The translations under genes and the position numbers were made by a program. From assembly GCA_020725625.1 (NCBI GenBank), contig DYET01000137.1, positions 1-38,732 on the forward strand: a DNA stretch of 38,732 bases. The letters are read 5' to 3'. This document shows positions 8,231 through 36,335 of the stretch, piece after piece. The notes below the pieces were generated by a model. That model searched no databases. It worked only from the letters and a program-made list of their open reading frames with translations, and was not told the origin of the DNA. This DNA is from Desulfovirgula sp. GTDB taxonomy: Bacteria; Bacillota; Desulfotomaculia; Desulfotomaculales; Desulfocucumaceae. The first letter of the stretch is position 1; the number at the start of each line of letters is the position of its first letter.

Positions 8231-8239
8231 AGCAGCCGG

Positions 8240-8268
8240 TTGAGGATGGGCATTTCTTATGGTATGAT
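8240..8268 (+). promoter_or_regulatory. Sigma-A-like promoter of the UPF0175/DUF3368 pair
   Basis: TTGAGG (8240-8245) and TATGAT (8263-8268) are separated by exactly 17 bp, directly after the ssb stop and 37 bp before the GTG at 8305. Its position supports that GTG, and not the ATG at 8227, as the antitoxin start. Confidence 0.6.
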
Positions 8269-8304
8269 CTTACTAAAGCCAGGTATTACCGGGGAGGCGA
8301 TAAA

Positions 8305-10642: not shown

Positions 10643-10646
10643 AGAG

Positions 10647-16304: not shown

Positions 16305-16336
16305 CGGAGCGAAAACTCTATTTGGAGGTGGTTTCC

Positions 16337-18363: not shown

Positions 18364-18785
18364 ATGATATATATCGCAAGCAAAAATAAGATAAACCATG
18401 AGCTAAAAATGGCCTTTAGGTTGTTTTGGCTTGTTGTAGGTGCAGCCATAGTGGCAACCGGACTAGAGATATTTTTGGTACCGAATTCTATCATTGATGG
18501 TGGCGTGGTTGGCATTTCAATCATTATTAGCCATTTAACGAGGCTACCGTTGGGTGCGTTTTTCGTTGCTTTTAACCTGCCATTTCTGTTCGTGGGGTAT
18601 AAGCATATTGGAAAGACATTCGTTATCTCTACCTTTATAGGGGTAGTGGCTCTTGCCCTGTTTGTGACTTTGCTTCACCCAGTGCCTAGCTTGACTGGCG
18701 ATTTGTTGCTTGCTGCCGTCTTCGGGGGAGTGTTTGTGGGTACGGGTGTCGGCATAATCATTAAGAACGGTGGTTCTTTGGATGG
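18364..18785 (+). pseudogene. yitT: yitT, 5' part, interrupted by an IS256-type element
   Basis: The first 140 codons encode the membrane part of a YitT-family protein: FWLVVGAAIVATGLEIFLVPNSIIDGGVVGISIIISHL and NLPFLFVGYKHIGKTF, ending ...KNGGSLDG at the insertion point. Removing the IS and one copy of the 8-bp duplication joins this codon-perfectly to the downstream half and gives 291 residues, the normal family length. The reading frame now ends inside the IS after five foreign residues. No strong ribosome site is seen at ATG 18364, and the frame stays open upstream to 18244, so the true start is unsure. Confidence 0.88.
18778..18785 (+). repeat. Target-site duplication, left copy
   Basis: TTGGATGG here and at 20229-20236 are identical and flank the IS256-type element. 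The flanking bases differ on either side, so the duplication is exactly 8 bp, the size expected for this family. Confidence 0.9.
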
Positions 18786-20228: not shown

Positions 20229-20690
20229 TTGGATGGAACCGAAATCCTTGCGATCTTGGCCCACCGGTCCAAGGGGTTTTCTATTGGGCAAGTAGTGATG
20301 TTTTTCAATGTCTTTATCCTTGGTAGCGCCGGGTTGGTCTTCGGGTGGGATCGGGCAATGTACTCGTTGATTGCCTATTTTGTTGCATTCAGGACGATTG
20401 ATGTGGTGATCGATGGTTTGGATGAGTCAAAGTCGGTAACCATTATCTCAAATAAACCCAGTGAAATTTCCGAAGCCATTTTGGCCAGGTTGGGGCGCGG
20501 GTTGACCCATGTTTACGGAAAAGGCGGATATTCTAAGGAAGACAAGGAGATTCTTTACTGTATAGTCACTCGTTTAGAGTTGGCCAAATTAAAGTCAATT
20601 ATTCAGGAGATAGATGACAGTGCCTTTGTGGCAATAGAAGACGTTCATGAAGTACTTGGCGGAGGTTTCCGTAAGAGAACAATTCACTAA
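20229..20690 (+). pseudogene. yitT: yitT, 3' part, downstream of the IS256-type element
   Basis: This is the remaining half of the YitT-family gene, starting with the right copy of the 8-bp duplication. It encodes LDGTEILAILAHRSKGFSIGQVVMFFNVFIL, two more membrane segments, and the C-terminal soluble DUF2179 domain (TIISNKPSEISEAILARLGRGLTHVYGKGGYS ... DDSAFVAIEDVHEVLGGGF). The frame matches the 5' half exactly after removal of the IS. The ORF could be entered from inside the IS, but it lacks its own start and ribosome site. Confidence 0.88.
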
Positions 20691-20976: not shown

Positions 20977-23900
20977 GTGATGCGAGGATTAATGAGACTA
21001 ATTGGTGTGTTATTGATACTTGTTACTACGTTCACCCTCTGGCCACCTATTACGACCCAAGCGGCATATATGAATGACCCCAAAGACCTGGGTACCCTTA
21101 ACAAAGGCCAAGCCATCACTAGAAACGATCCCATAAAGGGCACCGAAACCGTTAAGTTTGACGCCTACTGGACCATCATCGTAGACGGCCAGACGGTGGG
21201 GGAGGATTTGACCATCACCGAGCCCGGGAAAACGGCCGGGAATACCAACTACATTGCCCGCAGCCAGGCGCAGCAGTGGGTAGAGGTTTTCAATGGCTCG
21301 TGGAGCTATGCCGAGGATGCCGCGCCCTGGGTAACCCTGACCGCCAACAGCAGAACGTCCACCCGCGCTCACATCCGCCCCCTGGCCAAGGTAAGCGGGG
21401 CCTACGTGGAGAAGTACGACTACACACAGAAAAAGGTTTGGGTTCTCACCACCCCTTGGCCCTCCGGGAACATCCCGGACCTACGGGGAGTGGTGGCCGG
21501 CCAGCCCCAGACCTTTTGGGTGGAGGCCTATGCCTCGACTGCTGAACAACAAGGGATAAAAAACTATACCTTTTCAATTGGCGGAACGCCTATCAAGACG
21601 GGGAGTTCCACTTCCAACTACGCCGGCTTCTACGTTTCCCACACCTTCCCCTCTGCCGGCAGCTACACCATGCGCCTGGAGGTGACGGACATGGTGGGCC
21701 GCACCACCCCCATCACCAAGACCGTGTCCGTGGCCCCGGCTCCCCAGCCTCCCCCGCCCCCACCGGCTCCACCGCCGGCGGGCCAACCCGTGGCCGACTT
21801 CGACCTGCCGCCCTTCGGCGAGGTGGGCCAGAACGTCCAGGTGGTAAACAGGTCCCGGGCCAGCGAGGGCTTCTGGCTGGTACACAGCGAGTGGACGGTA
21901 ACTCCCCGGACCTACAACGGCAGCCTGGGCATGGCCGGCGGCACCCTGGTCTTTAACCGGCCCGGGACCTACACCGTCAAGCTCCAGGTTTGGGACAACC
22001 AGAATAACACGTCCACCGCCACTAAGAGTATTTCCATCTCGGAAAGCGCCCCACCACCTCCACCACCGCCCCCGCCCCAGCCGGAGAACATTCCGCCCGT
22101 GGCCCGTTTCGACATGGTGGCTCAGGCCTCGCCCGGGGTGAGCGTGCCAGTCAGGAACCGTTCCTACGACCCGGACGGTCAGATCGTGCGGGTAGAGTGG
22201 GAGACGCCCCCGGAGGCGGCGGCAAATCTGGATAACCAGGGCGGCAGCATCGCCTTCCCGGAGCCCGGCACCTACCGGGTCACCCTGACGGTGGAGGATG
22301 ACCGGGGGGCCAGCGATTCCGTCACCCAGACCATCCGCATCACCAACGAGCCGCCGGTGGCGCGCATCTCCGCCCCCAACACCGTGTTCCAGGGCGATGA
22401 GGTGGAGATCACCAGCAACTCCTACGACCCCGACGGGGAGATCGCCGGGTACGCCTGGAGCGTCACCCCCGCCGGCATGGTGGGTACCCTTACCGGCGAG
22501 GGCGGCAGCGTCTATTTCGACGAGCCGGGCACCTACACGGTGCGGCTTACCGTGGAGGACCGGTTTGGCCGGAGCGATACGGCGACGAAAACCATCGAGG
22601 TCAAACCGGCGGTGCCTACGGCCTTTTTCCGCTGGAGCGGGACGCCCAAGCAGAACCGGAAAATGACCTTCGATTCCTCCGAGAGCTACGGCTCCAGCCG
22701 TTACCCCGTGGACTTCAGCCAGAACCGGTGGGAGTTTATCCCGCCGGCGGGGGTATCCACTGCCGCGGTGAAGGTGGTGTCCTCGCCCGACCTAAAAACC
22801 AGGGAGGTACTTTTTAAGCAGCCGGGGGACTACCGGGTCCGCCTGGCGGTGAAGAACAGCAATGGCACCAGCTCGGAGTGGTACGAGCAGGTGCTCACCG
22901 TTTACCCGGACCAGCCGCCGGTGGCCGACTTCTACACCCTCCGGACCGTCACCCGCGACCCGGACAACAACAACCGGGCGGCCATCACCCTAATGGACCG
23001 CTCCCGTTCGCCCGACGGGGACGTAATTACCAAGCGGGTGTGGCAGTACCGCTACGACAGCGACAACGACGGCAGCTTCACGGACGAAGCCTGGGTCACC
23101 CTGGACAGCGGCAACAACCCCACCCCCACCCTTTACACCACCCAGGTGGGGAAGTACGAGTTCTCCCTGTACGTGGAAGAGAGCTTCGGCCAGGAGACCA
23201 TCCCGGAGTTCATCACCCTGGCGGATAAGAGGGCTGCGGATACATCTACCAAGCCCCTGGCCGAGAGGTCCGTGGAGGTCATCAACCTCCAGCCCATCGT
23301 CAACTTCGACGCCTTAAAGAAGAAAAAGGTGGATATTGTCTTCACCGTGGGCGAGGTGGACCCAGCCAAGGTGCAGGACCTTTCGGGCCGGATCACAGAG
23401 CAGATCGAAACCAGGCTGGCGGCCATGAACATCGACTACGGCACCATCCAGTCGGTGGAAACCTCCACGGTTTCCACCCGCGACGCGGGGGCGGAAGAGA
23501 TCTTTAACAACTGGCAGAAGTACCCCTTGATCAGCGCTCCCATGTTCGATGCGGGCTGGCGGTTGTACGGAAATGAGATCTATACCACAGCCAATGTCCA
23601 CTGGACCGGTTTCTGGGACAACCGCAAACAAAACGCCACGGACCAGACGATAGAATTCGAGGTCATGACCACCCAGCACCCCGATCCCTGGGGTTTCACC
23701 TTCCGCATGACCAGTCCTGAGCCCGACCGGTACTCCTTTTACGCTTTGGAGTGGGGTCCATATTGGCAGGAACTGACCCTGGCCAAAATCACCAGTTGGA
23801 AGCCTTCAAGCTCTGATCCCACCCACGGGGGGCCGCTGTATCACGGCACCATCAGTGCCGCCGACGGTTACTACGCAGGGAGCTACCACGGCGGCTTCGC

Positions 23901-26721
23901 GGGGGCGCTGCGGGACGTTTCCGGTAAGGTGCTGGTCCGGGTTCCATTTAATGTGCAATATAACCGGTGGGACCGGGCGAAGATCGACGTGCACGGAAAC
24001 CACATTCAGATTTGGGTCAACGGCGCCAAGGTGATCGATTACGTGGATAACGATAACCCATTGCTGGTAGGAAGCTACGGCCCCTACACCGCCAGCCAGT
24101 ACAATACCCATTTCCGCAACGTGACCATCACCACGGGCACCAGAAAGACCCTGGATGAAGTACTCAAAGAACCATCCTGGCGGGAGGACGCTCAAAAGTT
24201 CCTGGTCAACATCAGTGACGTACCGTACCCTGAATTTGACAACCCGGAGAAGGCCGCGGTCATCTACTCGCGCCTTTTGAGCAACGGCATCTATTTCAAC
24301 GTCCTGGGGACGGCCACCAACCAGGCCCAGGCGCAGGGGATCATCACCCGCAATGACGGCAGGGGGACCTATATTGACAACGGCAACATGGATACCGCAC
24401 TGGCGCAGCTGGCGGACTACATCATCGCCCAGGTCACGGCGCAACCCCGGCTGATTGAAAAGTACGTGCTCCTGGACGAAGAGGTGGAGTACCAGACCTA
24501 CTACGGGGACCCCGAAAGCGACCCCAAGTTCGCGGAAAGGTGGATCTACCAGCACGACCCCTACTGGTTCAAGAACAGCCTCGGCGCGGCGAGCTACGAC
24601 GGCCAGTACCTGCCGGCGCCAGTGACCCGGTTCGACAAGGTGGGCAAATTTGACGTGGAGTTTCAGGCGCGGGACAATCCCAAGCCCGACGACCGTTTCG
24701 ACAGCTACCGCCTGTGGTCTGCCATGCCCCAGGACAAGCTTACCCTCTACGTGCACCGTAAACCCCTGGCCCTGTTCTCCGTCCAGATGGCCCCCGTCGG
24801 TGGCGGGACGGCGAATATTCGCACTGAGGAAGACTTTGAGGATGCTTCTTACCCCTTCAGCTTTACGGGAAATTGGAACCGCAGTACCCAACAAAAATAC
24901 GGTGGGAGTTACTCGTACCGGAGCGCTTCCATCGGCGACGGCGGCTCCACGGCAAGCCAATTCACCGTCAACGTCCCGCCCGGCGCTACTAACGGCAGCC
25001 TGTCGCTTTACCACCTGGTGAGGTCCGAGAGCGGCTACGACTTTCTGAATATCTACCTGGACGGGAACCGCGTCGTCCGCCGCTCGGGCTATGGCAACTG
25101 GCAGCAATACAAAACACCCCTGTCCCCGGGCAACCACACGGTCAAGTTCGAATACACCAAGGACGGGTCGGTCAGTGATTACGACGACGCCGCTTACGTG
25201 GACAACATCCTGCTGTCCTACGACGCGCCGGCGGCCGCATCCTACAGCGTGCAATTGACCAGCCAGTCCTACGACCTCGACCACCAGGGGGAGGCGGGAC
25301 AGGGCATCGTCCAGGAGGAGTGGCGCTGGAAAGAAGCTCTGGAGGCCGGGTGGCACCCTGGTAAACCAGCGGAACTGGACCCCGGTGAAACCTACCTGGT
25401 GTCTCTGCGGGTGAAGGACGTGGAAGGGGCCTGGTCGGACGAGAACGTGAAGGTGCTCAGTACCGGCAGCCTGAACATGCCCCCCGTGGCCCAGTTCAGC
25501 GTCAGCCCCAACCCCCTGCCCCTGGGGAAAGACCTGTCCTATAACGACCTGAGCTACGACCCCAACGGGGATACCATCACTGAACGCAAGTGGCGGATGG
25601 CGAAACTACCGAGCGGATCCTGGACGGATTACGGCGGCACGCCGCCCAACAACTTCACGTCCCTTGGCACGGGGGACTACAAGATCGAACTCACCGTGAA
25701 AGACTCCCAAGGGGCCTGGTCCGAACCATTCTATCAAACCGTGACCGTCGTCCCGGACAACAACGCCCCCGTGGCCCGCTTCACGGTCAGCCCCAACCCG
25801 TTGCCCCTGGACGTGCCGGTGGCCTACAACGACACTTCCTGGGACCCGGACGGGGACCCCATCGTGGCCCGGGAGTGGCAGTACCAGAAAAACGGTGGGG
25901 CGTGGGTAAGCGGTCAGCCCCTGGACTTCGCCGCCCTGGGCACCGGCAGCTACAACATCCGCCTGCGGGTCAAGGACCAGCCGGCCTTGAGCCAGATGAC
26001 GCCTTTGTGGTCCGAATGGTATACCCAGAGCCTGACGGTGGTGGCCGGTAACCAGAAGCCCGTGGCCCGGTTTACCGTCGCCCCCAACCCGGCCCTTACC
26101 GACGAGCCCGTGACCTATACCGATACCTCCTATGACCCGGACGGGGCGGGGATCGCCGAACGGGTGTGGCAGGTGACCGATACGGCCGGCCGGGTGCTGG
26201 GAGAGTACCATAACCAGCTCCCGCCGCGGGTGTTTGCCAACACCGGCTGGGGGGACGGGGGCGCCGGCACCTACCGCATCGGCCTCAGGGTGCGGGACAA
26301 CTCCCCCAACGGCATTTCGCCGACCGTGTGGTCCGACTGGACCTGGCAGACCCTGACGGTGGTGATGCCCCTTTCCGGCTCCGGGGAGATCACCCCCAAC
26401 CCGGCCCTCTCCGGCTTCCGGGTGCGCGTCACCGTCTGGACCAGCGGCTACGCGGAAGAAGTCAGGGTAAAGTTCCCCGACGATGCCTTCTTCCGGGGCG
26501 ACGAGATCGTCCTGACCCCGGCTGGTCCGATTAGCGGCAAGGAAAACACTTGGCGGGGCGCCTACCTGACGGACGCCAAGACCCCGGACGGGCCGTATAC
26601 CGTTATGGCTACAATCCGGCGTAGGTCTGTGGCGCCGCAAACCGTGACGGTGCCCTTGACGCTGGTTATCCGGGGGGACATCTACGACCAGATCAGGGTG
26701 CGCATACGAGACAGCCGCTAG
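20977..26721 (+). CDS. Giant secreted PKD-repeat protein with split VWA-like and LamG-like domains
   Basis: The protein has 1914 residues with a signal peptide (about 1-30). Two proline-rich hinges (near 258-270 and 359-369) separate PKD-type repeats carrying YDPDG motifs, for example RSYDPDGQIV, NSYDPDGEIA and SYDPDGAGIA. Around 781-830 a VWA-like first strand (KKKVDIVFTVGEV) appears, then an inserted concanavalin/LamG-like jelly roll (about 867-1053), then a VWA-like second half (KFLVNISDVPY, SNGIYFNVLGTA, to about 1158). A MAM-like beta domain occupies about 1285-1418, further PKD-like repeats run to about 1790, and a final beta domain follows. No LPXTG or C-terminal anchor is seen. It is probably an extracellular adhesin. 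AAGGGAGG precedes GTG 20977; ATG 20980 is possible. Confidence 0.85.
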   Translation: MMRGLMRLIGVLLILVTTFTLWPPITTQAAYMNDPKDLGTLNKGQAITRNDPIKGTETVKFDAYWTIIVDGQTVGEDLTITEPGKTAGNTNYIARSQAQQWVEVFNGSWSYAEDAAPWVTLTANSRTSTRAHIRPLAKVSGAYVEKYDYTQKKVWVLTTPWPSGNIPDLRGVVAGQPQTFWVEAYASTAEQQGIKNYTFSIGGTPIKTGSSTSNYAGFYVSHTFPSAGSYTMRLEVTDMVGRTTPITKTVSVAPAPQPPPPPPAPPPAGQPVADFDLPPFGEVGQNVQVVNRSRASEGFWLVHSEWTVTPRTYNGSLGMAGGTLVFNRPGTYTVKLQVWDNQNNTSTATKSISISESAPPPPPPPPPQPENIPPVARFDMVAQASPGVSVPVRNRSYDPDGQIVRVEWETPPEAAANLDNQGGSIAFPEPGTYRVTLTVEDDRGASDSVTQTIRITNEPPVARISAPNTVFQGDEVEITSNSYDPDGEIAGYAWSVTPAGMVGTLTGEGGSVYFDEPGTYTVRLTVEDRFGRSDTATKTIEVKPAVPTAFFRWSGTPKQNRKMTFDSSESYGSSRYPVDFSQNRWEFIPPAGVSTAAVKVVSSPDLKTREVLFKQPGDYRVRLAVKNSNGTSSEWYEQVLTVYPDQPPVADFYTLRTVTRDPDNNNRAAITLMDRSRSPDGDVITKRVWQYRYDSDNDGSFTDEAWVTLDSGNNPTPTLYTTQVGKYEFSLYVEESFGQETIPEFITLADKRAADTSTKPLAERSVEVINLQPIVNFDALKKKKVDIVFTVGEVDPAKVQDLSGRITEQIETRLAAMNIDYGTIQSVETSTVSTRDAGAEEIFNNWQKYPLISAPMFDAGWRLYGNEIYTTANVHWTGFWDNRKQNATDQTIEFEVMTTQHPDPWGFTFRMTSPEPDRYSFYALEWGPYWQELTLAKITSWKPSSSDPTHGGPLYHGTISAADGYYAGSYHGGFAGALRDVSGKVLVRVPFNVQYNRWDRAKIDVHGNHIQIWVNGAKVIDYVDNDNPLLVGSYGPYTASQYNTHFRNVTITTGTRKTLDEVLKEPSWREDAQKFLVNISDVPYPEFDNPEKAAVIYSRLLSNGIYFNVLGTATNQAQAQGIITRNDGRGTYIDNGNMDTALAQLADYIIAQVTAQPRLIEKYVLLDEEVEYQTYYGDPESDPKFAERWIYQHDPYWFKNSLGAASYDGQYLPAPVTRFDKVGKFDVEFQARDNPKPDDRFDSYRLWSAMPQDKLTLYVHRKPLALFSVQMAPVGGGTANIRTEEDFEDASYPFSFTGNWNRSTQQKYGGSYSYRSASIGDGGSTASQFTVNVPPGATNGSLSLYHLVRSESGYDFLNIYLDGNRVVRRSGYGNWQQYKTPLSPGNHTVKFEYTKDGSVSDYDDAAYVDNILLSYDAPAAASYSVQLTSQSYDLDHQGEAGQGIVQEEWRWKEALEAGWHPGKPAELDPGETYLVSLRVKDVEGAWSDENVKVLSTGSLNMPPVAQFSVSPNPLPLGKDLSYNDLSYDPNGDTITERKWRMAKLPSGSWTDYGGTPPNNFTSLGTGDYKIELTVKDSQGAWSEPFYQTVTVVPDNNAPVARFTVSPNPLPLDVPVAYNDTSWDPDGDPIVAREWQYQKNGGAWVSGQPLDFAALGTGSYNIRLRVKDQPALSQMTPLWSEWYTQSLTVVAGNQKPVARFTVAPNPALTDEPVTYTDTSYDPDGAGIAERVWQVTDTAGRVLGEYHNQLPPRVFANTGWGDGGAGTYRIGLRVRDNSPNGISPTVWSDWTWQTLTVVMPLSGSGEITPNPALSGFRVRVTVWTSGYAEEVRVKFPDDAFFRGDEIVLTPAGPISGKENTWRGAYLTDAKTPDGPYTVMATIRRRSVAPQTVTVPLTLVIRGDIYDQIRVRIRDSR

Positions 26722-26835: not shown

Positions 26836-27084
26836 ATGGGACAGGAGAAGCAAGGCGGTGAGGCAGTGGAGGAGGGAGAACGGCTGCGGATTGGCGAGGC
26901 GGTCCAGCTCCATTTTGCGGGTAAGAAAAAGCCCTGCCGGCAGGGAGTGGTGGTGGGGCTTTATGACAAGTTTTTCAACGTCCACTTCGGCCACTACCAG
27001 GAGAGTTTCCTGTGGGTGGACCAGGTGATCGGGGAGCTAAGGATAGTGCGGCTCGGAAAACGGTCAGCCTTCAGGGCCGGCTGA
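26836..27084 (+). CDS. Small hypothetical protein next to the rep-like gene
   Basis: This 82-residue product is not recognised. After a polar N-terminus it has a beta-rich core (LRIGEAVQLHFAGKKKPCRQGVVVGLYDKFFNVHFGHYQESFLWVDQVIGELRIVRL) that could fold as a small SH3-like barrel. A GGTAAGGGA sequence precedes ATG 26836; a GTG at 26866 is an alternative start that keeps the folded core. It ends 21 bases before the rep-like gene and probably shares its transcript. The codon use matches the neighbouring element genes. Confidence 0.6.
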   Translation: MGQEKQGGEAVEEGERLRIGEAVQLHFAGKKKPCRQGVVVGLYDKFFNVHFGHYQESFLWVDQVIGELRIVRLGKRSAFRAG

Positions 27085-27105
27085 CCCGGAAGGGAGGGAT
27101 AAGCA

Positions 27106-28050
27106 TTGTCTATCATCGGGCAGGGAAGAAGCGCCGGCGGGTATGCTGTCATTCAGAACAGTACCCTGGACGGGCTCTTGCAACACGGCGGGGTGGACCT
27201 GGCCGGCTTCTACTTAGCGCTAAAGCGCTTTATTGACCGCCGCCAGGGCCCCGACTCCCATCAGACCATGGACTGGAGCATCAAGTATTTTTGCACCAAG
27301 TTCACCATGGGACAGCAACGCTTCTACCGGCTGGCGGAGAAGCTGTGGCAGCTAGGCCTTTTGGACGTGGAAAAGGTTATCTCCCCGGACGGGTGGCAAA
27401 ACAAGTACCTGGTGCACGACTATCCCCCGTACCAGGGGCCGCTACGGCCTTTTCGCCAGGGGAGTTTTAAGTACCGGAAGGGTGAAGGGGCGACCTTTGG
27501 GGAAGATGAGGAACAGGGCAAAGAAGCCCCTGTGGCGGTAGCCGCGTTCAGGCAGGAAACCTGTGCGGAGGTGGCAGGCGCGGCGGGTGATGACGGCAGC
27601 CGGGAGGGAATAGCCGGAGCGGGTATACCCAAATCAGGTATACCCGAATCAGATATACCCAAAGCGGATATACCTGCTGCAGGTATACCCGCCGCGGATA
27701 CGCTTAGAAAAGACAACGTGGCAGGAAAAGACAAGGATGAAGAAAAGGATAACGGGAAGGAAAAAGAAAAGGGTGGGAATCCGTCCGTCAGTCAGTCCGT
27801 CTATCACCACGAGCCACTTGGTCAAAGCAGAAGACCGACGGACGGACGGATTGATTTCGGCAACCCCAGACAAATAATGCAATACTACGCCCAAAAGTTT
27901 GGCGCCACGGAAAGGCAGGTGATGCTGGCCATACTGGCGGTGCAGGCCCAGCTCGACAAGGGGACCGTGATCATGGACACCAAGGCCTACTTCGAGAAAA
28001 CCCTGACCCAGCTCCTGCAGGAGGAGGACTTTCGCAAGCACTTTGTCTGA
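27106..28050 (+). CDS. Winged-helix replication-initiator-like protein with internal iterons
   Basis: This 314-residue protein starts at TTG, after AAGGGAGGG. Residues about 15-100 resemble a winged-helix initiator or DnaD/RepA_N-type domain (DLAGFYLALKRFID ... FTMGQQRFYRLAEKLWQLGLLDVEKV). The middle is low-complexity and charged, with five five-residue repeats of the type GIPKS / DIPKA (residues about 173-200) encoded by 15-bp DNA repeats. The C-terminal 60 residues form a small helical domain (QIMQYYAQKFGATERQVMLAILAVQAQLDKG). The architecture of N-terminal winged helix, repeat-bearing middle and helical end recalls plasmid RepA_N initiators, whose origin lies within the gene. Function is inferred; a transcription regulator is the main alternative. 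Confidence 0.6.
   Translation: MSIIGQGRSAGGYAVIQNSTLDGLLQHGGVDLAGFYLALKRFIDRRQGPDSHQTMDWSIKYFCTKFTMGQQRFYRLAEKLWQLGLLDVEKVISPDGWQNKYLVHDYPPYQGPLRPFRQGSFKYRKGEGATFGEDEEQGKEAPVAVAAFRQETCAEVAGAAGDDGSREGIAGAGIPKSGIPESDIPKADIPAAGIPAADTLRKDNVAGKDKDEEKDNGKEKEKGGNPSVSQSVYHHEPLGQSRRPTDGRIDFGNPRQIMQYYAQKFGATERQVMLAILAVQAQLDKGTVIMDTKAYFEKTLTQLLQEEDFRKHFV
27622..27689 (+). repeat. Five iteron-like 15-bp direct repeats (GGTATACC core) inside the rep-like gene
   Basis: The 8-bp cores GGTATACC, GGTATACC, GATATACC, GATATACC and GGTATACC start at 27622, 27637, 27652, 27667 and 27682, an exact 15-bp period. GGTATACC is itself palindromic. Weaker units flank the block. They encode the protein repeat xIPxx. They may be origin iterons or only a consequence of a peptide repeat. 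Confidence 0.75.
27778..27852. repeat. Perfect 12-bp inverted repeat inside the rep-like gene
   Basis: AATCCGTCCGTC (27778-27789) and GACGGACGGATT (27841-27852) are exact reverse complements separated by 51 bp. Each arm belongs to a short GTCC/GACG run (CCGTCCGTCAGTCAGTCCGTC and its counterpart). It lies about 90 bp downstream of the iteron block. Confidence 0.75.
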
Positions 28051-28099: not shown

Positions 28100-28133
28100 A
28101 AAACCAGTCGTAGGCAGCTACCACTGGTTTTTT
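28100..28133 (+). terminator. Intrinsic terminator after the rep-like gene
   Basis: AAAACCAGT (28100-28108) and ACTGGTTTT (28123-28131) form a perfect 9-bp stem ending in a T-run to 28133. It lies 50 bp after the rep-like stop codon. Confidence 0.85.
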
Positions 28134-28145
28134 GATTAAAAGGGT

Positions 28146-28292: not shown

Positions 28293-28562
28293 GAAAGCCC
28301 CCTCCCCTGCCCCTCCCCGGGGAGGGCTGGGAAACGGAAGCGACGCCGGCGGGCGTCGCCAGTCAAAGCCTGCCGGCTCCGGCCTGATTATACCGGCGCG
28401 GGCACCCCGGTCCGGCAAGGGTAAAGGCCGTGAGCATATCCTCCCTGCGGTCCGGTATCCCTCCCGGCCCCTCCCTTACGGTCGGCCCTTGCCGGCCCGC
28501 CCGCGCCAGCGGCCTTGTCCACCAAGGCCGGCAGGCCAAGTTCAAGAGAGGGGGAGCGGGCC

Positions 28563-29051
28563 ATGGTGCAAGGGACACTGTGGGGCGGGGACGAGATGGT
28601 GGAGGAAAGGAGGAAGCGGGTACAGGTGGTCAGGGTGGAGATGGTCAAGGAGCGCACGGTCGCCTTCGTCACCAACCGGGTGCACAACTCGCGGGACGCG
28701 GCCGCCATCCTGGCCGACTTCCTGGCCGGGGCGGACCGGGAGCACCTGGTGGTGCTCTGCCTGGACACTAAGAACAAGGTAAACGCCCTCAACGTGGCGG
28801 CGGTGGGGGTGCTGAACATGGCGCCGGTGCATCCCCGCGAGGTGTTCAAACCAGCCATCCTGGCCAACGCGGCGGCCATCATCGTCGGCCACAACCACCC
28901 CAGCGGCGACCCCGCGCCCAGCCGGGAGGACGTGGAGATGGCCAGGCGCCTGGTGGAGGCCGGGCGGCTGTTGGGGATCGAGGTGCTGGACAGCCTGGTC
29001 CTCGGGGACAACGGCACGTTTGTCAGCTTCAAGGAGCAGGGGCTGCTCTAG
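28563..29051 (+). CDS. radC: RadC-like JAB/JAMM-domain protein
   Basis: The 162-residue protein consists of a RadC-type JAB/MPN domain, without the N-terminal helix-hairpin-helix of chromosomal RadC. The metal motif HxH-x7-S-x2-D is complete: His110, His112, Ser120, Asp123 (in VGHNHPSGDPAPSRED). It is preceded by the family segment VVLCLDTKNKVNALNVAAVG and NPREVFKPAIL-like residues (HPREVFKPAIL). Short RadC proteins are frequent on plasmids, phages and integrative elements, but their role is not firmly known. ATG 28563 follows GAGGGGGAG by 8 nt. It opens the T4SS operon. Confidence 0.9.
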   Translation: MVQGTLWGGDEMVEERRKRVQVVRVEMVKERTVAFVTNRVHNSRDAAAILADFLAGADREHLVVLCLDTKNKVNALNVAAVGVLNMAPVHPREVFKPAILANAAAIIVGHNHPSGDPAPSREDVEMARRLVEAGRLLGIEVLDSLVLGDNGTFVSFKEQGLL

Positions 29052-29081
29052 GCGGCCCCTCTCGGAAAGGAGAGCAAGAAG

Positions 29082-29429
29082 ATGTGGTTCAAGGACGCCG
29101 AGCACGAGAAGTCTTTCGCGGAACTGGGGGAGAGGGCCGCGGCCAGGCCCGGCGAGCGGGAGTACCTGGCGGCCCTCTACGTCCTGGCCGCCCTGGACAA
29201 GCCGGTGGCCAAATACGTCCAGCCCCGCCGGGTGGCCTTCACCGCGCTTTTTAAGGCCGCCGGGCCGTGGAGCAGCGGGGAAAAGGCTTTTGTCCGCCTG
29301 GCGGCCACCCTGTTCAACGGTGAGGCCTGGAAGGTGGCGGTGCACGACGCTTTCTCCTGCCTGGACCCGGCCAACTGCCAGGTGGCTCTGGAGGCACTGA
29401 AGATACGTTACCAGAGAAGCGCGTTTTAA
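29082..29429 (+). CDS. DUF6075-like small protein
   Basis: The 115-residue protein begins MWFKDAEHEKSFAEL, which resembles the start of DUF6075 proteins found in Gram-positive mobile elements, and continues as a helical protein (REYLAALYVLAALDKPVAKYV, EKAFVRLAATLFNGEAW). No catalytic motif or membrane segment is visible. GGAAAGGAG precedes the ATG. It lies 30 bases after radC and before virD4, so it travels with the conjugation genes. Its function is unknown. Confidence 0.75.
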   Translation: MWFKDAEHEKSFAELGERAAARPGEREYLAALYVLAALDKPVAKYVQPRRVAFTALFKAAGPWSSGEKAFVRLAATLFNGEAWKVAVHDAFSCLDPANCQVALEALKIRYQRSAF

Positions 29430-29435
29430 CGAGAG

Positions 29436-29454
29436 GGGCCCGTTAAGCGGGCCC
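29436..29454 (+). other. Short GC-rich hairpin between DUF6075-like gene and virD4
   Basis: GGGCCCG (29436-29442) pairs with CGGGCCC (29448-29454) with a 5-nt loop, 30 bp before the virD4 GTG. No T-run follows, so it may set differential mRNA stability. Confidence 0.5.
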
Positions 29455-29484
29455 TTGACGCCACCCCGGAAAGGAGGCCTGGCC

Positions 29485-31428
29485 GTGCCCCTGGTGTTGT
29501 TGTTTTTCCTATCCCTGGTGGCCTACTGGTTACTCCTGCGCTGGCTTATCCGGCGGCGGGTGCTCACCCTGCCCCGCGCCCTGGCGGCCGCCGCCATTCT
29601 GGCCTTGGCCCTACTGGACTTCTTTCTCACCGCGCCCCTCTTCCTTCTGCCCAAGACCGTCTGGCCGGCGCTGGCACCGGCGATGACCTGGCCGGAGGTG
29701 GTGGCTAGCCTTTCCGCTCCGGCCCTGGGCGGGGGCAACCAGTGGTGGCAGCTTACCCTGGACCTTTTCCGCACCCGGCCGCCGGGCTTCTGGCTGACGC
29801 AGGTACCTTTTCTCCTGGCGGCTTTCCCCCTGGTCCGGTGGGCGTGGCGTGCCGGCTGGCCCGGCGGCGAGCCCCGTGCCGCCCGCACGGCCACCCACGG
29901 CAGCAGCCGCTGGCGCGGCCGGGCCGAACTGAAGACCACCCTGCGGGCCGTCCACTGCGGCCGGCCGCAGGGCAGCGGCGTGGTGGTGGGAGGGGCCGGG
30001 AACAAGACCTGGCTCACCCGGCCGGAGGTGGGCAACCCCCACGTCCTCCTCATCGGGGCCACCAGGAGCGGCAAGAGCCGGCGGGTCATCCTGCCCACCG
30101 TCTGGGTGCTGGGCCGGGCCGGGGAGTCCATGATCCTCACCGACCCCAAGGGAGAACTCTACGCCCACACCGCCGGCTGGCTGCAAAGTCAGGGCTACCA
30201 GGTGGTGCTCCTGGATCTCCTCGCCCCGGCCCGGGGCAACCGCTGGAACCCCCTCACCGCCGTAGCCCAGGCCTGGACCGCCGGCGAGGGCGAGGAGGCG
30301 GCGCGCCTGGCCTGGGAGATCGGCCACATCCTGGCCTGGAGCGAGGGGCCGGGCACGGACCCCATCTGGCCCCAGGCAGAGGAATCCCTTATCGCCGCCC
30401 TCTGCCTGGCGGTGGCCGTGGAGGCCCCGCCGGAGGCGCGGCACATGGCTACAGCTTTTCGCCTGCTCACGGAACTGGGCCACGGGGGCGGGGAAGCCCT
30501 GGACGCTTGGTTCGCGGGGCTACCGCCGGACCACCCGGCGCGGCTGGCCTACGGCACGGCGGCTTTAAGCGAGAGCCGTACCCGCTCCAGTATCTACACC
30601 GGCACGGCGGCCCATTTAAGGCTCTGGGGGGACCCCGGGGTGGCCTGGCTGGGCGCCGCCTCCGACCACGACCCGGCGGAAGCAGGGTTAAAGCCCACGG
30701 CCGTCTTCCTCCTGCTGCCGGACGAAGCCGGGGCGAGAAGGCCCATCGCGAGCCTCTACGTCAACCAGGCCTACGGCGCCCTGGCCCGGGTGGCCAGGGC
30801 CAACGGCGGCAAGCTGCCCGTGCCGGTCTGGTTCCTTTTGGACGAGTTCGGCAACGTGGGGAAGCTCCCGGCCATGGCGGAAAAGCTCACCGTGGCCGCC
30901 GGCAGGAACATCCGCTTCCTCCTGGCGGTGCAGTCCCTGGCCCAGGTGGCCCACGTCTACGGGGAAAAGGCGGCGGAAATCCTCCTCGGCAACTGCGACA
31001 CCTGGCTCTACCTGCGGGCGGCGGACAACGAGACGGCCCGGGCCATCAGCCAGAAGGCGGGGACGTACACGGTAAAGACGGTTTCCGTACAGCGACGGCC
31101 GGGCCTGGCCGCGGGCGGGACGGAAGGAGCGGCCGGCCGGCCGCTTTTGACGCCCGACGAGGTTTTGCGCTGGCCCGCCGGCCAGGCTTTACTCCTCCAG
31201 GCCGGCCAGTACCCGGCTCGCCTGCCTTTGCCAGACCTCTCCAATTGGCGGGAGGCCAACGCGGCCTTCGCCACCGCCCCGGAACCAGAAGGGCAGACCC
31301 CCCGCGCCGGGCCGGTCCCCACCTGGGTGCCCCGGCTGGAGTCCGGGATGGTTGTTTCTTCCGCCGGTCAGCGGCAGGCCGGGCGGGAAAGGGACGGCCA
31401 GGACATCTTCGGCCGCTGCGGGAGGTGA
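29485..31428 (+). CDS. VirD4/TraG-type conjugation coupling protein
   Basis: The 647-residue coupling protein has hydrophobic N-terminal segments (residues 3-55, 100-125) and an ATPase domain with Walker A GATRSGKS at residues 191-198 and the typical following RRVILPTVWV. It also shows ILTDPKGELY, the WPQAEESLIAALCLA segment and Walker B FLLDEFGNVGKLP. It would deliver the relaxase-DNA complex to the type IV channel. GTG 29485 is chosen because AAGGAGG lies 7 nt upstream; an upstream in-frame start would include the hairpin region. The C-terminal 70 residues are Pro/Gly-rich. It is the first transfer gene proper of the operon. Confidence 0.92.
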   Translation: MPLVLLFFLSLVAYWLLLRWLIRRRVLTLPRALAAAAILALALLDFFLTAPLFLLPKTVWPALAPAMTWPEVVASLSAPALGGGNQWWQLTLDLFRTRPPGFWLTQVPFLLAAFPLVRWAWRAGWPGGEPRAARTATHGSSRWRGRAELKTTLRAVHCGRPQGSGVVVGGAGNKTWLTRPEVGNPHVLLIGATRSGKSRRVILPTVWVLGRAGESMILTDPKGELYAHTAGWLQSQGYQVVLLDLLAPARGNRWNPLTAVAQAWTAGEGEEAARLAWEIGHILAWSEGPGTDPIWPQAEESLIAALCLAVAVEAPPEARHMATAFRLLTELGHGGGEALDAWFAGLPPDHPARLAYGTAALSESRTRSSIYTGTAAHLRLWGDPGVAWLGAASDHDPAEAGLKPTAVFLLLPDEAGARRPIASLYVNQAYGALARVARANGGKLPVPVWFLLDEFGNVGKLPAMAEKLTVAAGRNIRFLLAVQSLAQVAHVYGEKAAEILLGNCDTWLYLRAADNETARAISQKAGTYTVKTVSVQRRPGLAAGGTEGAAGRPLLTPDEVLRWPAGQALLLQAGQYPARLPLPDLSNWREANAAFATAPEPEGQTPRAGPVPTWVPRLESGMVVSSAGQRQAGRERDGQDIFGRCGR

Positions 31429-31483
31429 GGACCAGGGAGCAATCCCCTTTTCGTGTTAACCTTTTCCGGGAGGAGGTGAACCC

Positions 31484-31723
31484 ATGCCCGCCTTCGTCAA
31501 CCAACTGATCAGCTTTCTCCAGTCGGCCCTGACCTGGGTGGTGGCCCTGGCCATCCCGGCCACGGCCCTTACCGCCGGCTACCACGCCCTGATGCGGGCC
31601 ACGGCCCAGGACGAGATGACGGCCCTGCAGCACTCCCGGGCGCTGAAAAACGCCCTCGTCTACGGCGTGGTGGTCATCCTGGCCGGCAGCATCACCAACG
31701 CTGTGCTGGGCGCTTTCCGCTAA
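31484..31723 (+). CDS. Small two-helix membrane protein of the T4SS (VirB2-like position)
   Basis: The 79-residue protein has two hydrophobic helices (LISFLQSALTWVVALAIPATALTAGYHAL and LVYGVVVILAGSITNAVLGAF) joined by a polar loop with QDEMTALQHSRALKN. This size, topology and position directly before a TrbL/VirB6-like gene fit the VirB2/TrbC-like small subunits found in Gram-positive T4SS operons. There is no signal peptide. GGGAGGAGGTG precedes the ATG. Sequence identity to a named family is too low to be sure by eye. Confidence 0.7.
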   Translation: MPAFVNQLISFLQSALTWVVALAIPATALTAGYHALMRATAQDEMTALQHSRALKNALVYGVVVILAGSITNAVLGAFR

Positions 31724-31731
31724 GGGGAAGT

Positions 31732-31773
31732 CCCGGGGAAGGAGGTGGGGGCCCTTACCCCCTCCTGCCCGGG
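31732..31773 (+). other. Long GC-rich hairpin between the 2-TM gene and the VirB6-like gene
   Basis: CCCGGG (31732-31737) pairs with CCCGGG (31768-31773), enclosing AGGAGG-T-GGGGG against CCCCC-TCCT, with a short loop CCCTTA. No T-run follows. It could protect or process the mRNA so that the small pilin-like protein is made in excess. Confidence 0.5.
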
Positions 31774-31803
31774 GCCGGGTTTCCACGAAAGGAGGGAGAG
31801 AGG

Positions 31804-32664
31804 ATGCTGGAAACCCTGCAAAACGCGGCCACCCAGATGCTGACCGCCCTCTTGCTCCACTACATCAGCGCCCTGCTGGCGCCCCTGGAGTGGGCGCTCA
31901 GGATGTTCGCCCAGGCGGGGGCGCTGCGGGACCTGACCTCCCAGCCCTGGGCGCAGAACCTCATCGCCGGGACGCAGGGCATCGCCGCCGCCCTCCTGGC
32001 CCTGCGGGTGGCCTGGGAGGCGCTGCAGATGGCCTCCTTGCGGGCGGAAGGGGCGCCCACGGACCCCGGGGCGCTCCTCAAGCGCACGGTGATGGCCGGG
32101 GCGGCCATCTTCGCCGGGCCGTGGGTGGCCCGGCAGATGCTCGTCTTCGGCAACGCCCTGGCCGCCGCCGTGGCCCGGGCCGGCCTGGGCGTGGGCCTGG
32201 AGCAGTTGGACCTGGCCTCGCTCGTGGCCTTCGCCGTTGATCCTTTACGCCTGCTGGTGCTCCTGCTGCCGGCGGTGGTCCTGGGCTTACTCATCTTTTT
32301 CCAGGCCATGATCCGCACCGTGGAGATCACCCTGGCCGCCATCATCTCGCCCCTGGCGGCCCTGGGGTATGTTTCCGGCGGGGGGATGGCCGATGTCTGG
32401 TGGCGGGAGGTGGTGGTTTTAAGCACCGCCCAGGCGGTGCAGATGCTCCTCCTCTACCTGGCCACCGTCTTTTTCGCCACGCCCACCCAGTGGGACAGCA
32501 GCCAGTTCACCCTGGGGCCCTTTCTCTTCGTGGCCACCCTCTGGGTGGCCTGGCGGACGCCGCACATCCTGCGCAACTACGCCTATTCCTCGGGGGTGAG
32601 CAGTGGTATGAGCAGCGTGGGCCAGGTGGCCATGTGGCGGGTGATGGCCCGCCTGCCGTTTTAA
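31804..32664 (+). CDS. TrbL/VirB6-like polytopic conjugation protein
   Basis: The 286-residue membrane protein has about six hydrophobic helices. Its central stretch LLVLLLPAVVLGLLIFFQAMIRTVEITLAAIISPLAALGYVSGGGMADVWWREVVVL, with the ISPLA and WWRE motifs, is typical of TrbL/VirB6-type proteins of Gram-positive T4SS. It would form part of the translocation channel in the membrane. GGAGGGAGAGG precedes the ATG. Its place between the small 2-TM gene and the PrgI-like gene fits the usual order. Confidence 0.82.
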   Translation: MLETLQNAATQMLTALLLHYISALLAPLEWALRMFAQAGALRDLTSQPWAQNLIAGTQGIAAALLALRVAWEALQMASLRAEGAPTDPGALLKRTVMAGAAIFAGPWVARQMLVFGNALAAAVARAGLGVGLEQLDLASLVAFAVDPLRLLVLLLPAVVLGLLIFFQAMIRTVEITLAAIISPLAALGYVSGGGMADVWWREVVVLSTAQAVQMLLLYLATVFFATPTQWDSSQFTLGPFLFVATLWVAWRTPHILRNYAYSSGVSSGMSSVGQVAMWRVMARLPF

Positions 32665-32682
32665 GCAAGGAGGTGCTTGAAC

Positions 32683-32997
32683 ATGCCCGAGTATTTGGTG
32701 CCGCGGGCGGTGCGCTCGCGCATGGAGGTCTTTCCCGGCTTCGGTCTGGTGGAGATCCTGGCGGTGGCCGCCGGCGGGGCCGTGGGCGCGGTCCTGCAGC
32801 TCATCCCGGCGGCCCTGCCCTTGACCCCGGCCCCCCAGCTCTTCGCCCGCTTCTTTGCCTTTACCCTGCCCCTGGGGGTGGCCTACGTCCTGGTGCGCCA
32901 GGACCTGGGCGGCCACAGCCTCTGGGGCCAACTCCAAGCCTTCCGCCGCTGGGCCAACCATCCGCGCATCTACTACTATCGGCGAGGTGATGTCTGA
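32683..32997 (+). CDS. PrgI/VirB3-like T4SS membrane protein
   Basis: The 104-residue protein has a polar N-terminus (PEYLVPRAVRSRMEVFPG), two adjacent membrane helices (VEILAVAAGGAVGAVLQLI and FFAFTLPLGVAYVLV), and a C-terminal amphipathic tail ending HPRIYYYRRGD. PrgI/VirB3 proteins have this arrangement and usually lie directly before virB4. AAGGAGGT precedes the ATG, and the stop codon overlaps the next ATG by one base. It probably anchors the VirB4 ATPase. Confidence 0.75.
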   Translation: MPEYLVPRAVRSRMEVFPGFGLVEILAVAAGGAVGAVLQLIPAALPLTPAPQLFARFFAFTLPLGVAYVLVRQDLGGHSLWGQLQAFRRWANHPRIYYYRRGDV

Positions 32998-33665
32998 TGC
33001 CACAGGCATGGTCCAAGGTACGACTCAAGAAACCCTCCGGCCGTAACCCAGCGGCCGGGCCTGGGGAAAAGAACACGGTGCAGCAGTGGCTGCCCCTGCG
33101 GGACATTGCCGGAGGCTGCCTGGTGCTGGCCGGCGGGAGCGTGGTGGCCGTGGTGCGGGTGGAGCCATCACCCTTCACCCTCCTCTCCGCGGGGGAACGG
33201 GCCAGGAGGATCGCCGCCCTGCACGAGGCCATCCAGGCCCTGCCCGGGCCGGCCCAGGTCTGCGCCATCCCCCGCCCCATCGACCTGGACGCCTACCTGG
33301 CGGAACTGGAAGCGAGGCTGGCGGAAACAGACGGCAGCCGGCGGGCTGTCCTGCGCGGCTACGCGCGCTACGTGCGCGGCCTGGTGGCCGGCGCCGCGGC
33401 CATGGAACGGCGCTTTTACGTCCTCCTGCCGGGGGACGGCCGCAAGAAGGGCGGCCGGGAGGAAACCATGCAGCGCGCCGGGGAGCTGGTGGCGGCCCTG
33501 GCCCGGGCGGACCTGGCGGCGCACCTATGCGGCGACCAGGAAATCTTGGACCTCTTGTTCTGCTTCTTCCACCCGGCCCAGGCGGCCTTTGAGCGGGCGG
33601 AGTTCCCGGCGGCGGCACCCCTTTACCTGACGGCCGGGGAGGTGGGCGACCATGGCCCTGCTTGA
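32997..33665 (+). CDS. VirB4 N-terminal-domain protein (split VirB4)
   Basis: The 222-residue soluble protein contains the type of fold seen at the N-terminus of VirB4/TraC-like ATPases: a strand after GGCLVLAGGSVVAVVRVEPSPFTLLSAGE, then a helix with ERARRIAALHEAIQAL, IPRPIDLDAYLAEL, and a later strand FYVLLPG followed by a long helix. There is no Walker motif. It overlaps the VirB4 ATPase gene by 14 bases and the preceding gene by one. It likely restores, as a separate chain, the N-terminal half that the next protein lacks in part. Confidence 0.68.
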   Translation: MPQAWSKVRLKKPSGRNPAAGPGEKNTVQQWLPLRDIAGGCLVLAGGSVVAVVRVEPSPFTLLSAGERARRIAALHEAIQALPGPAQVCAIPRPIDLDAYLAELEARLAETDGSRRAVLRGYARYVRGLVAGAAAMERRFYVLLPGDGRKKGGREETMQRAGELVAALARADLAAHLCGDQEILDLLFCFFHPAQAAFERAEFPAAAPLYLTAGEVGDHGPA

Positions 33666-35388
33666 CCTCCTGGCGCCGCCGGCCCTGGGCTTCCAGCCCC
33701 GCCACCTGGTATTCGGCGACCAGGTGGCCCGGGTGCTGGCCGTCCTGGACTACCCGCCCCGGGTGGGCCAGGCCTGGCTCTCCCGGCTGGCCAACCTGCC
33801 CGGGGTGTCTTTAAGCCTGCACCTGGTCCCCACCGACCCGGTGGACCTCCTCCAGGCCCTGAACAAGAGCGTGCAGGAGTATACCAGCCGCCTAGCGGCC
33901 GGGGGCAGCGCCCTGGCCCAGTCCCGCTGGCAGCAGTCCCTGGAGGATGCCAAACTGCTCCTGAAGAAGGTGGACCAGGAGGCGCAGAAGGTCTACCGGG
34001 TGGCGGTCATCCTCCTGGTGCTGGCGCCGGACGAGGAGGAGTTGAACCGCCGCTCCCGGCAGGTGGAGGCGACCTGCGCCGCCGCCGGGATGCGGGCCCG
34101 GGCGGCCGTCTACCGCCAGGAGGATGGCCTCAAGGCGGCGGGACCGTGGGGCCTGCTGCCGCCGGAGATGGCCGGCCTGGCGGCCCGGGAGATGCCGGCG
34201 GAGACCATCGCCGCCGCCTATCCCTGGGTGGCCGGGGGTTTGAACCACGGCCGGGGGATCGTCTGGGGCCGGGATACAGGTGGCGGGCTCATCCTGGCCG
34301 ACCGCTGGCAGCCGCCGGAGGGCTCCGGCATCACCAACCCCAACCTGAACATCCTGGGCACCTCCGGCGGCGGCAAGTCCTTCGCCGCCAAGGTCCTGCT
34401 CCTGCGGGAATACGCCCTGGGGGCGCGGGTGCTGGTCCTGGACCCCGAGCGGGAGTACCGGGGCCTCTGTCGGGCTTTAGGGGGGAGCTGGGTGAACGCC
34501 GCCGGCGGCAGCGGCCGCATCAACCCCCTGCAGGTGCCGGACACGCCGGACGCCGATGAGGAGGACGAGGAGGCCGGGGGCACGGGGCGCGGGCCTTTAA
34601 GCGCCCACCTGCAGCGGGTAAAGACCTTTTTCCAGCTCTACCTGCCGGGCCTGGATGACCTGGAGCGGGCCGTCCTGGACGAGGCGGTGCTCGCCGCCTA
34701 CCGGGAATACGGCGTGGACTGGCAGACCGACCCGGCTACCGTCCAGACCTGGCCCACGGTGGACGATGTCTACCGCCACGTGCAAGGGGCGGGGGCGGAA
34801 AGGCTGGCCATCTTGCTCAAGGGTGCGGCGGAAGGCGCGGAGAGCGCCTTGTGGGCCGGCCAGACGAGCCTGCCGCCGGCGGGAGAGTTCACGGTGCTGG
34901 ACATCCGGGAGCTGACGGATGCCAGCGATGCCGTGCGCCGGGCGCAGTACTTCAACATCCTGGGCTATGCCTGGGACCTGGTGCGGGAGGGGCAGGCCAG
35001 GCAAAGGCGCACCGTGCTGGTGGTGGACGAGGCTTGGCTGTTGGCCGATCCCCAGACCCCCCAGGCCATGGGCTTTTTACGTAACGTGGCCAAGCGCATC
35101 CGCAAGTACCTGGGCAGCCTGACCATCATCACCCAGAACGTGGTGGACTTCCTGAGCCCCGAGCTGGCCCGCCTGGGCGAGCCGGTCATCAACAACGCCA
35201 GCTTCAAGCTCTTGATGCGCCAGGAATCCCGCGACCTGGAGGCTTTGCGAGAACTCTTACGGCTTTCGGAGGCGGAGGTTGACCTCCTGGCCGGGGCCAG
35301 GCGGGGCGAAGGGCTCTTGCTGGCCGGCAACCAGCGGGTGCACCTGCGGGTGGAGGCTGCGCCCCACGAACTGGAGGTGATCGGCTGA
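33652..35388 (+). CDS. VirB4-family conjugation ATPase
   Basis: The 578-residue ATPase powers T4SS assembly and substrate transfer. Walker A is GTSGGGKS at residues 236-243 (PNLNILGTSGGGKSFAAKV), Walker B is VLVVDEAWLL, and the motifs LDPEREYRGLCRALGG and IITQNVVDFLS are characteristic. The N-terminal 200 residues keep only part of the usual VirB4 N-domain (DPVDLLQALNKSVQEYTSRLAAGGSALAQSRWQQSLEDA), the rest being in the preceding gene. Full-length relatives usually have about 600-800 residues. The stop codon overlaps the next start by one base. Confidence 0.93.
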   Translation: MALLDLLAPPALGFQPRHLVFGDQVARVLAVLDYPPRVGQAWLSRLANLPGVSLSLHLVPTDPVDLLQALNKSVQEYTSRLAAGGSALAQSRWQQSLEDAKLLLKKVDQEAQKVYRVAVILLVLAPDEEELNRRSRQVEATCAAAGMRARAAVYRQEDGLKAAGPWGLLPPEMAGLAAREMPAETIAAAYPWVAGGLNHGRGIVWGRDTGGGLILADRWQPPEGSGITNPNLNILGTSGGGKSFAAKVLLLREYALGARVLVLDPEREYRGLCRALGGSWVNAAGGSGRINPLQVPDTPDADEEDEEAGGTGRGPLSAHLQRVKTFFQLYLPGLDDLERAVLDEAVLAAYREYGVDWQTDPATVQTWPTVDDVYRHVQGAGAERLAILLKGAAEGAESALWAGQTSLPPAGEFTVLDIRELTDASDAVRRAQYFNILGYAWDLVREGQARQRRTVLVVDEAWLLADPQTPQAMGFLRNVAKRIRKYLGSLTIITQNVVDFLSPELARLGEPVINNASFKLLMRQESRDLEALRELLRLSEAEVDLLAGARRGEGLLLAGNQRVHLRVEAAPHELEVIG

Positions 35389-36335
35389 TGCCGGCCTGGC
35401 TGGTGAAGCTGGGATGGGTTGCCGGTAGATTCCTCCTGGGGGACGACCTGGGGAAGAAGCTCCTCCAGGCCCTGGCGGTCCTGGCCGGGCTCATCCTCGC
35501 CCTGGTCTTATTCCTCCCTGCCCTGGTGACCTGGATCCCCCTGGCCACGGTGGAGAAGATCAACGACTTTTTCGCCGCCGCCGAACAGGCCTCCGCCACC
35601 ACCCGCACCCCGGACGACCCGGAGGGCATCACCATCCCCTGGGAAGAGGTGACGGCGGCATGGGCGGTGCTTTACGACCAGGACTTCAGCGCCGCCGGCG
35701 AGGAAGCTATTGAAAACCTGGCCGGGGAGTGGGCTGAGCGCCACGAGCGGGTGGAGGTGCACAGCGACGGCCAGGGGAACACTTGGACGGAAACCCATGT
35801 CTGGTATACCCGGCGGGATTTCCAGGAGGTGATGGAGCGGCTGGGGTTCACCAGGGAGCAAAGGGAGCAGGCGCGGCGCTACCTGGAGGCCCTGCGGGAA
35901 GGGGGCCTCAGGCCGCCGGCCGGCTGGCGGGCCCGCCCCAGCCCCGGCTGGGCCTGGCCCGTTCCGGGGTACGATAGCGCGGCGGCCATCAGCAGTCCCT
36001 ACGGGCTGCGGGTCCATCCCATCACCAAGAGGCCGCAGCTTCACCTGGGAGTGGACATCGCCGCGCCAGAGGGGACACCGGTGGTAGCCGCCCGGGCGGG
36101 CACGGTGACGGAAACGGGAACGGACGAGGAGCTGGGGCGTTACGTGGTTATCGAAGGGGGTGGCTTTGAAACCCGCTACGGTCACTTAAGCGTTATCGGT
36201 GTGCGGCAGGGGGAGAGGGTAGAGGCGGGCCAGGGTATCGGCCGGGTGGGGAACACCGGTCTTTCCACCGGGCCGCACCTGGACTTCCGGGTGCGCTTTG
36301 GCGGGTGGTGGCAGAACCCGCTGCAGTATTTCTGA
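35388..36335 (+). CDS. Membrane-anchored M23 peptidase of the T4SS
   Basis: The 315-residue protein has a basic N-terminus, one membrane segment (about residues 27-50), a polar middle of 150 residues and a C-terminal LytM/M23 domain (about 200-315). His219 and Asp223 (HLGVD), His266 (YGHLS) and His297 (GPHLD) are present. The final zinc-ligand position of the normal HLH motif is Asp299, so the usual metal set is altered. Such proteins locally open peptidoglycan for the conjugation channel, as VirB1-like muramidases do. It is the last gene of the T4SS operon and shares one base with virB4. Confidence 0.86.
   Translation: MPAWLVKLGWVAGRFLLGDDLGKKLLQALAVLAGLILALVLFLPALVTWIPLATVEKINDFFAAAEQASATTRTPDDPEGITIPWEEVTAAWAVLYDQDFSAAGEEAIENLAGEWAERHERVEVHSDGQGNTWTETHVWYTRRDFQEVMERLGFTREQREQARRYLEALREGGLRPPAGWRARPSPGWAWPVPGYDSAAAISSPYGLRVHPITKRPQLHLGVDIAAPEGTPVVAARAGTVTETGTDEELGRYVVIEGGGFETRYGHLSVIGVRQGERVEAGQGIGRVGNTGLSTGPHLDFRVRFGGWWQNPLQYF

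Follow-up and report, generated by a model that had tools for sequence, protein, structure and literature searches.

Among the described replication initiators, the best parallels to the locus analysed here come from the RepA_N family (PF06970). The N-terminal domain of pSK41 Rep (319 aa) binds Rep boxes that lie centrally in the rep gene itself, and it is followed by a dispensable linker and a genus-specific C-terminal domain that contacts primase (PMC5703833). In plasmid pPR9, about 500 bp spanning the RepA_N domain and the origin has been replaced by a PF13730 (HTH_36) N-domain with retention of the pSK41 C-domain, and a pPR9 minireplicon is compatible with a pSK41 minireplicon (PMC5703833). 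A third group, the phage DnaD-like replisome organisers of Firmicutes, joins a winged helix-turn-helix (wHTH) to a DnaD-type C-domain.

We analysed a stretch of 38,732 nucleotides from Desulfovirgula sp. (contig DYET01000137.1, positions 1 to 38,732; hereafter the window) and focused on a gene on its forward strand at 27106..28050, encoding 314 aa; it begins with TTG, immediately 5' of which lies a GGAGG-like ribosome site. Its size and conjugative setting are those of RepA_N initiators, as is its order of parts: a wHTH N-domain of about 120 aa, a variable linker with candidate origin iterons, and a host-varying C-domain of about 100 aa, the repeats lying inside the gene between the two domains. 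Unlike these initiators, the protein has no RepA_N profile match, carries another iteron and ends in a C-domain unrelated to any profile tested. The gene very probably encodes a modular initiator for theta-type replication of a conjugative element, with its putative origin iterons inside the coding sequence. This reading draws on repeats observed in all seven N-domain relatives, constraint on them at the DNA level, an observed cassette swap, a DnaD fusion, the partition, MobL and type IV secretion context, an adjoining A+T-rich segment of 40 bp and the published precedent of pPR9 and pSK41.

The iteron block (27607..27695, forward strand) consists of five GRTATACC cores with a period of 15 bp, preceded by a degenerate copy. 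The five cores start at 27622, 27637, 27652, 27667 and 27682, a spacing of exactly 15 bp, and read GGTATACC, GGTATACC, GATATACC, GATATACC and GGTATACC in that order, translating as GIPKSGIPESDIPKADIPAAGIP; the sixth copy, GGAATAGC at 27607, has one mismatch to GGWATWCC. An earlier note had pointed out the five cores at 27622-27689, and their regularity is real and exceeds chance: when the gene was recoded synonymously 20,000 times with the codon usage of the element, five cores were never reached and the maximum was three. A looser motif, evaluated with the gene's own codons from outside the repeat, gave P = 6e-5. The element prefers ATC (59%) and GGC (46%); the codons used in the cores are only ATA (14% in the element) with GGT (11%) or GAT (29%). 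The GRTATACC sequence is constant in the 8-bp cores, whereas the 7-bp spacers differ at nearly every position, and this divergence argues against a simple recent duplication.

A first scan of genome contigs returned no relatives and a profile scan returned three; with whole-genome searches, the N-domain defines a new family that comprises the window protein and seven relatives, 8 known proteins in total, from the same class and Moorella. By alignment, the N-domain of the window protein shares 44-60% identity with those of the seven. Named records among the relatives are Moorella mulderi, Desulfocucumis palustris and a Desulfotomaculum MAG, and genome G029 belongs to the same family as the window genome. 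All seven N-domain (type-A) relatives carry GGWATWCC-type repeats, G[GA][TA]AT[TA]CC, in the linker. In-frame copies in these relatives have only T or A at the third positions of the Gly/Asp/Glu and Ile codons, and GGC and ATC never occur. Silent positions, on which the earlier note had let its proposal hinge, are thus not free to vary, and the motif also appears out of frame. Codon resampling of six genes, with codon usage taken from outside the repeats, gave a combined P of 1.3e-7, a value that is only approximate since the six genes share ancestry and three of them fall short of significance by themselves; L003, L004 and L005 have just two or three copies each and none is significant alone. 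In the Moorella relatives (L008-L010), the 15-mer GGTATTCCGATACAG lies in frames 1 and 0, where it is translated as RYSDT and as GIPIQ, and GGTATTCC is found a third time in frame 2, as QVFL. The presence of one motif in three reading frames in Moorella indicates that the DNA, not the peptide, is conserved.

These data bear on an alternative in which the array either repeats GIPxx at the protein level in the linker or is a 15-bp minisatellite of recent origin, and in neither case functions as DNA. All five full copies in the window gene share one reading frame, every copy in L003-L004 is likewise in one frame, and tandem duplication by itself can yield identical DNA. We regard this explanation as highly improbable, given that the cores are constant where the spacers have diverged, that synonymous recoding fails to reproduce the cores, and that the motif stands in different frames in L008-L010 as well as in L002 and L005, which have off-frame copies too.

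Other linker sequences were also recorded in the wider set of relatives. Beside 22-bp iterons, the linkers of the HTH_36-type proteins L006, L011, L012 and L013 contain AATACCCA two or three times as a 15-bp repeat (EYPxx); these copies resemble the window core and period, yet occupy another reading frame. In L003, L004, L008-L010, L045-L049 and L051, a valine run is nearly always encoded as GTT GTT GTT (GTA) beside A+T-rich sequence. This run spans initiators with different N-domains, is absent from the window gene and may be another DNA-level origin element. The DnaA-trio consensus is of the TAG type; a DnaA-trio reading of a GTTGTTGTTGTA run in the relatives was dropped, since the run is absent from the window and unlike that consensus.

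Profile searches placed the window protein in no described family. Searches against Pfam, NCBIfam, PHROGs and PDB sequences returned nothing usable, and no family profile matches its N- or C-domain. The RepA_N profile (PF06970) matched neither the window protein nor any of the 8 N-domain members, and a search with it through 113 genomes from the class, which lacked a positive control, gave no match. Rep_3 (PF01051) had no Pfam match to the window protein up to E 10, and neither DnaD (PF07261 / TIGR01446) nor HTH_36 (PF13730) matched it. Equally, tblastn of the window protein against phages, plasmids and also viral contigs gave no match. L002 had weak matches to partition families of Borrelia plasmids (PF01672, E 0.04; borfam_49, E 0.036), which were not upheld across the family. 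The earlier note had named RepA_N, DnaD and Rep_3 as candidate families, and none of them matches the window protein; nor does any profile match point to a transcription regulator. Its broader suggestion of a divergent initiator with an internal origin gains from the constraint on the DNA and from a DnaD-bearing relative, and loses its tie to RepA_N as far as profile membership is concerned.

The N-terminal domain (residues 1-125; 27106..27480, forward strand) was delimited by alignment with relatives and by the predicted wHTH, and is a putative iteron-binding domain. Its model has the order E-E-H-H-H-E-E with a block pLDDT of about 40-77 over residues 20-110, so that the winged helix proposed earlier is reproduced in its order of elements, at moderate confidence only. 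A fold search (VIA-align) with this low-to-moderate confidence model placed Geobacillus DnaB (Z 7.0), 4pql (Z 6.5) and 4pt7 (Z 6.4) on top, the latter two being RepA_N N-domains, with ordinary wHTH proteins and regulators tied at Z about 6. As the top matches lie within about one Z unit of many ordinary wHTH proteins, the search supports a winged helix and nothing further. The C-terminal domain is helical from about residue 225 (27778..28050, forward strand) and is common to HTH_36-type initiators. Modelled alone, it forms a three-helix core with pLDDT of about 90; the fold search with this model had no informative match, with no DnaD or RepA C-domain structure among the matches listed.

Comparison with an element from genome G221 (L025) revealed an exchange within the gene. 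This element is colinear with most of window positions 13996-36335, with protein identities of 60-90%. In blastn alignments of the two, DNA homology stops at 27099, just 5' of the start codon, and restarts at 27831; homology to L024/L026 restarts at about 27780. The N-domain and iterons (27100..27830, forward strand) are thereby replaced as one unit. The G221 counterpart of this segment encodes an unrelated HTH_36-type wHTH N-domain, whose homologue L006 matches PF13730 with E 4e-15, together with a 22-bp tandem array at spacings of 22, 22 and 22. A repeat of 22 bp is not a whole number of codons, so this array runs through all frames and cannot encode a peptide repeat, a further point against a purely peptide-level origin of the window repeats. 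The C-domain is retained on the other side of the breakpoint, with identity to the window of 69% for the L011 / G221 type and 57% for L006. On the 5' side, a small ORF of 82 aa (26836..27084, forward strand) has a 67% conserved counterpart in the same position in G221, despite the different initiator N-domain there.

The C-domain also has a separate history. The C-domain-only relatives of the window protein are L006, L011, L012, L013 and L014. In Desulfocucumis (L002), a window-type N-domain with its repeats is fused to a DnaD domain (PF07261, E 6e-15; TIGR01446, E 2e-14), an arrangement like that of the phage replisome organisers; unlike these, the window C-domain does not match a DnaD profile. 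The N-domain with GGWATWCC repeats is found in front of three or more types of C-domain: that of the window, DnaD in L002, and the type of L003-L005/L008-L010. The last type is also found in Moorella behind HTH_36-type N-domains with 21-bp linker repeats, at 54-58% identity, and in Moorella genomes with both type-A and HTH_36-type proteins the C-domain is common while the N-domain and linker repeats differ. In other HTH_36-type relatives (L043, L044) the linker repeats measure 22 or 23 bp. On these alignments, the N-domain and its putative cognate iterons are a single exchangeable cassette, and the C-domain is kept or exchanged separately. The layout is modular, with N-domain and candidate origin exchangeable in the G221 swap and one C-domain common to two N-domain types in Moorella. 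The compared elements differ by about 25% or more in DNA, so the exchange is not recent.

The window/G221 pair closely parallels the pPR9 chimera and is an exchange of that type involving another N-domain: in both, a single stretch of about 500-700 bp that covers the N-domain and presumed origin is exchanged while the C-domain and flanks are kept, and the replacement N-domain in G221 is also HTH_36-type. Unlike the pPR9 type, the window's own N-domain is not PF13730, and the hosts are Desulfotomaculum- and Moorella-like anaerobes. The gene would thus work like RepA_N without being a member by profile. This carries an exchange described in staphylococcal plasmids over to conjugative elements in relatives of Desulfotomaculum and Moorella. 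It also offers a natural experiment in the co-evolution of origin and initiator, as the DNA-binding domain and its candidate sites swap together inside one ORF and the candidate sites persist across reading frames among largely colinear conjugative elements.

The same comparisons weigh on whether the protein could be a DNA-binding regulator of the conjugation operon, with the repeats as operator sites in its own gene and not an origin. The winged-helix fold matches many regulators equally well, and the gene lies immediately 5' of the transfer genes. We nevertheless consider a regulator quite unlikely, as a relative has a DnaD helicase-loader domain at the C-terminal position, the exchange of N-domain and iterons parallels the pPR9 initiator swap, two unrelated wHTH types would not be expected both to have operator arrays in their coding linkers, and partition genes lie nearby in relatives.

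For the initiator, the proposed mechanism begins with the N-terminal winged helix, which would bind the GGWATWCC iterons of 15-bp period that lie in the linker region of its own gene; we infer that these repeats are the origin. An A+T-rich segment of 40 bp (27725..27765, forward strand), a possible DNA-unwinding element by its composition, begins about 30 bp 3' of the iterons and would then open. At 65% A+T it is the richest 40 bp of the gene, against 43% for the whole gene, and the most A+T-rich 40 bp also adjoins the iterons in L002, L003, L005 and L008-L010. The C-domain, presumably the replisome-contacting module, would recruit the host primosome, and the element would replicate autonomously. 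Such an initiator would offer a way, amenable to testing, of building replicating vectors for organisms in which few exist.

The C-terminal cassette opens with an inverted repeat (27778..27852, forward strand), in which a perfect 12 bp, AATCCGTCCGTC/GACGGACGGATT at 27778-27789/27841-27852, forms the ends of 20-nt arms that are 90% complementary. The earlier note was correct in placing this repeat inside the same gene; its role as part of the origin is not clearly borne out. The repeat is partly kept in C-domain relatives, being well formed in L006 and L012 and weak in L011, and the peptide encoded there is likewise conserved. The inverted repeat accompanies the C-domain rather than the iterons. 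A more speculative and on balance rather doubtful extension is that the gene represents an initiator family of its own in anaerobic Firmicutes, with free recombination between the N-domain/iteron cassette and the C-domain, and that a non-DnaD-like C-domain would load the replisome via a DNA site of its own, the inverted repeat at 27778-27852. If true, two separately swapped gene halves would set incompatibility and host range.

The gene is followed by a conjugation module (28515..36335, forward strand; colinear in G221) that encodes RadC, a DUF6075-like protein, a TraG/VirD4 coupling protein, a TrbL-like protein, a VirB4-like ATPase and an M23 peptidase, and thus a type IV secretion system with its coupling protein. 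In related elements, a MobL relaxase and a type IV secretion system are present together with an actin-like (ALP_N) partition protein, whose gene lies a few kb or less from the initiator in L020-L023, and the contig of the Desulfocucumis relative has a tyrosine integrase and a MobL homologue. No phage genes adjoin the window gene. The window element is conjugative and may be either an ICE or a plasmid assembled beside chromosomal genes. Its incomplete contig contains no integrase (PF00589), no PF03432 relaxase and, by tblastn, no homologue of the G221 MobL, and it ends just beyond the secretion genes in an IS110 transposase/element. The earlier suggestion of autonomous replication after excision is accordingly unsupported on this contig, where neither an integrase nor a PF03432 relaxase was found. 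The same findings would suit an array and protein that are relics, the initiator being no longer used and the element being copied only along with the chromosome or through a relaxase-driven rolling circle. Decayed HTH_36-type initiator copies with an internal stop or apparent frame shift do exist in G388 and G281 (L012/L039, L013/L040, L014). A relic is nonetheless unlikely here, because the window ORF is intact and its repeats are undegraded except for the first copy.

Several minor features were observed in and around the element. The window's own genome encodes a second, distant HTH_36-type homologue (G000:C118:18035-18328; 321-aa frame, E 4e-9). Directly 3' of the initiator gene (28100-28137), a hairpin followed by a T run resembles a terminator. 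Just 5' of the initiator, 20977-26721 encodes a 1914-aa protein with many PKD domains, about 76-78% conserved at the same place in G221. The two parts of a YitT-family gene, 18364-18807 and 20127-20690, appear to have been separated by a Mutator-family transposase (18836-20128; region 18364-20690). A UPF0175 gene followed by an ORF judged PIN-like by eye (8227-9061) and an MqsA-type antitoxin gene (16253-16945) are likely toxin-antitoxin pairs or remnants. Finally, ParA/CpaE-like, T2SSE and T2SSF genes at 9192-13719 form a Tad/Flp-like pilus cluster beside the conjugation module, with similar ORFs in G221.
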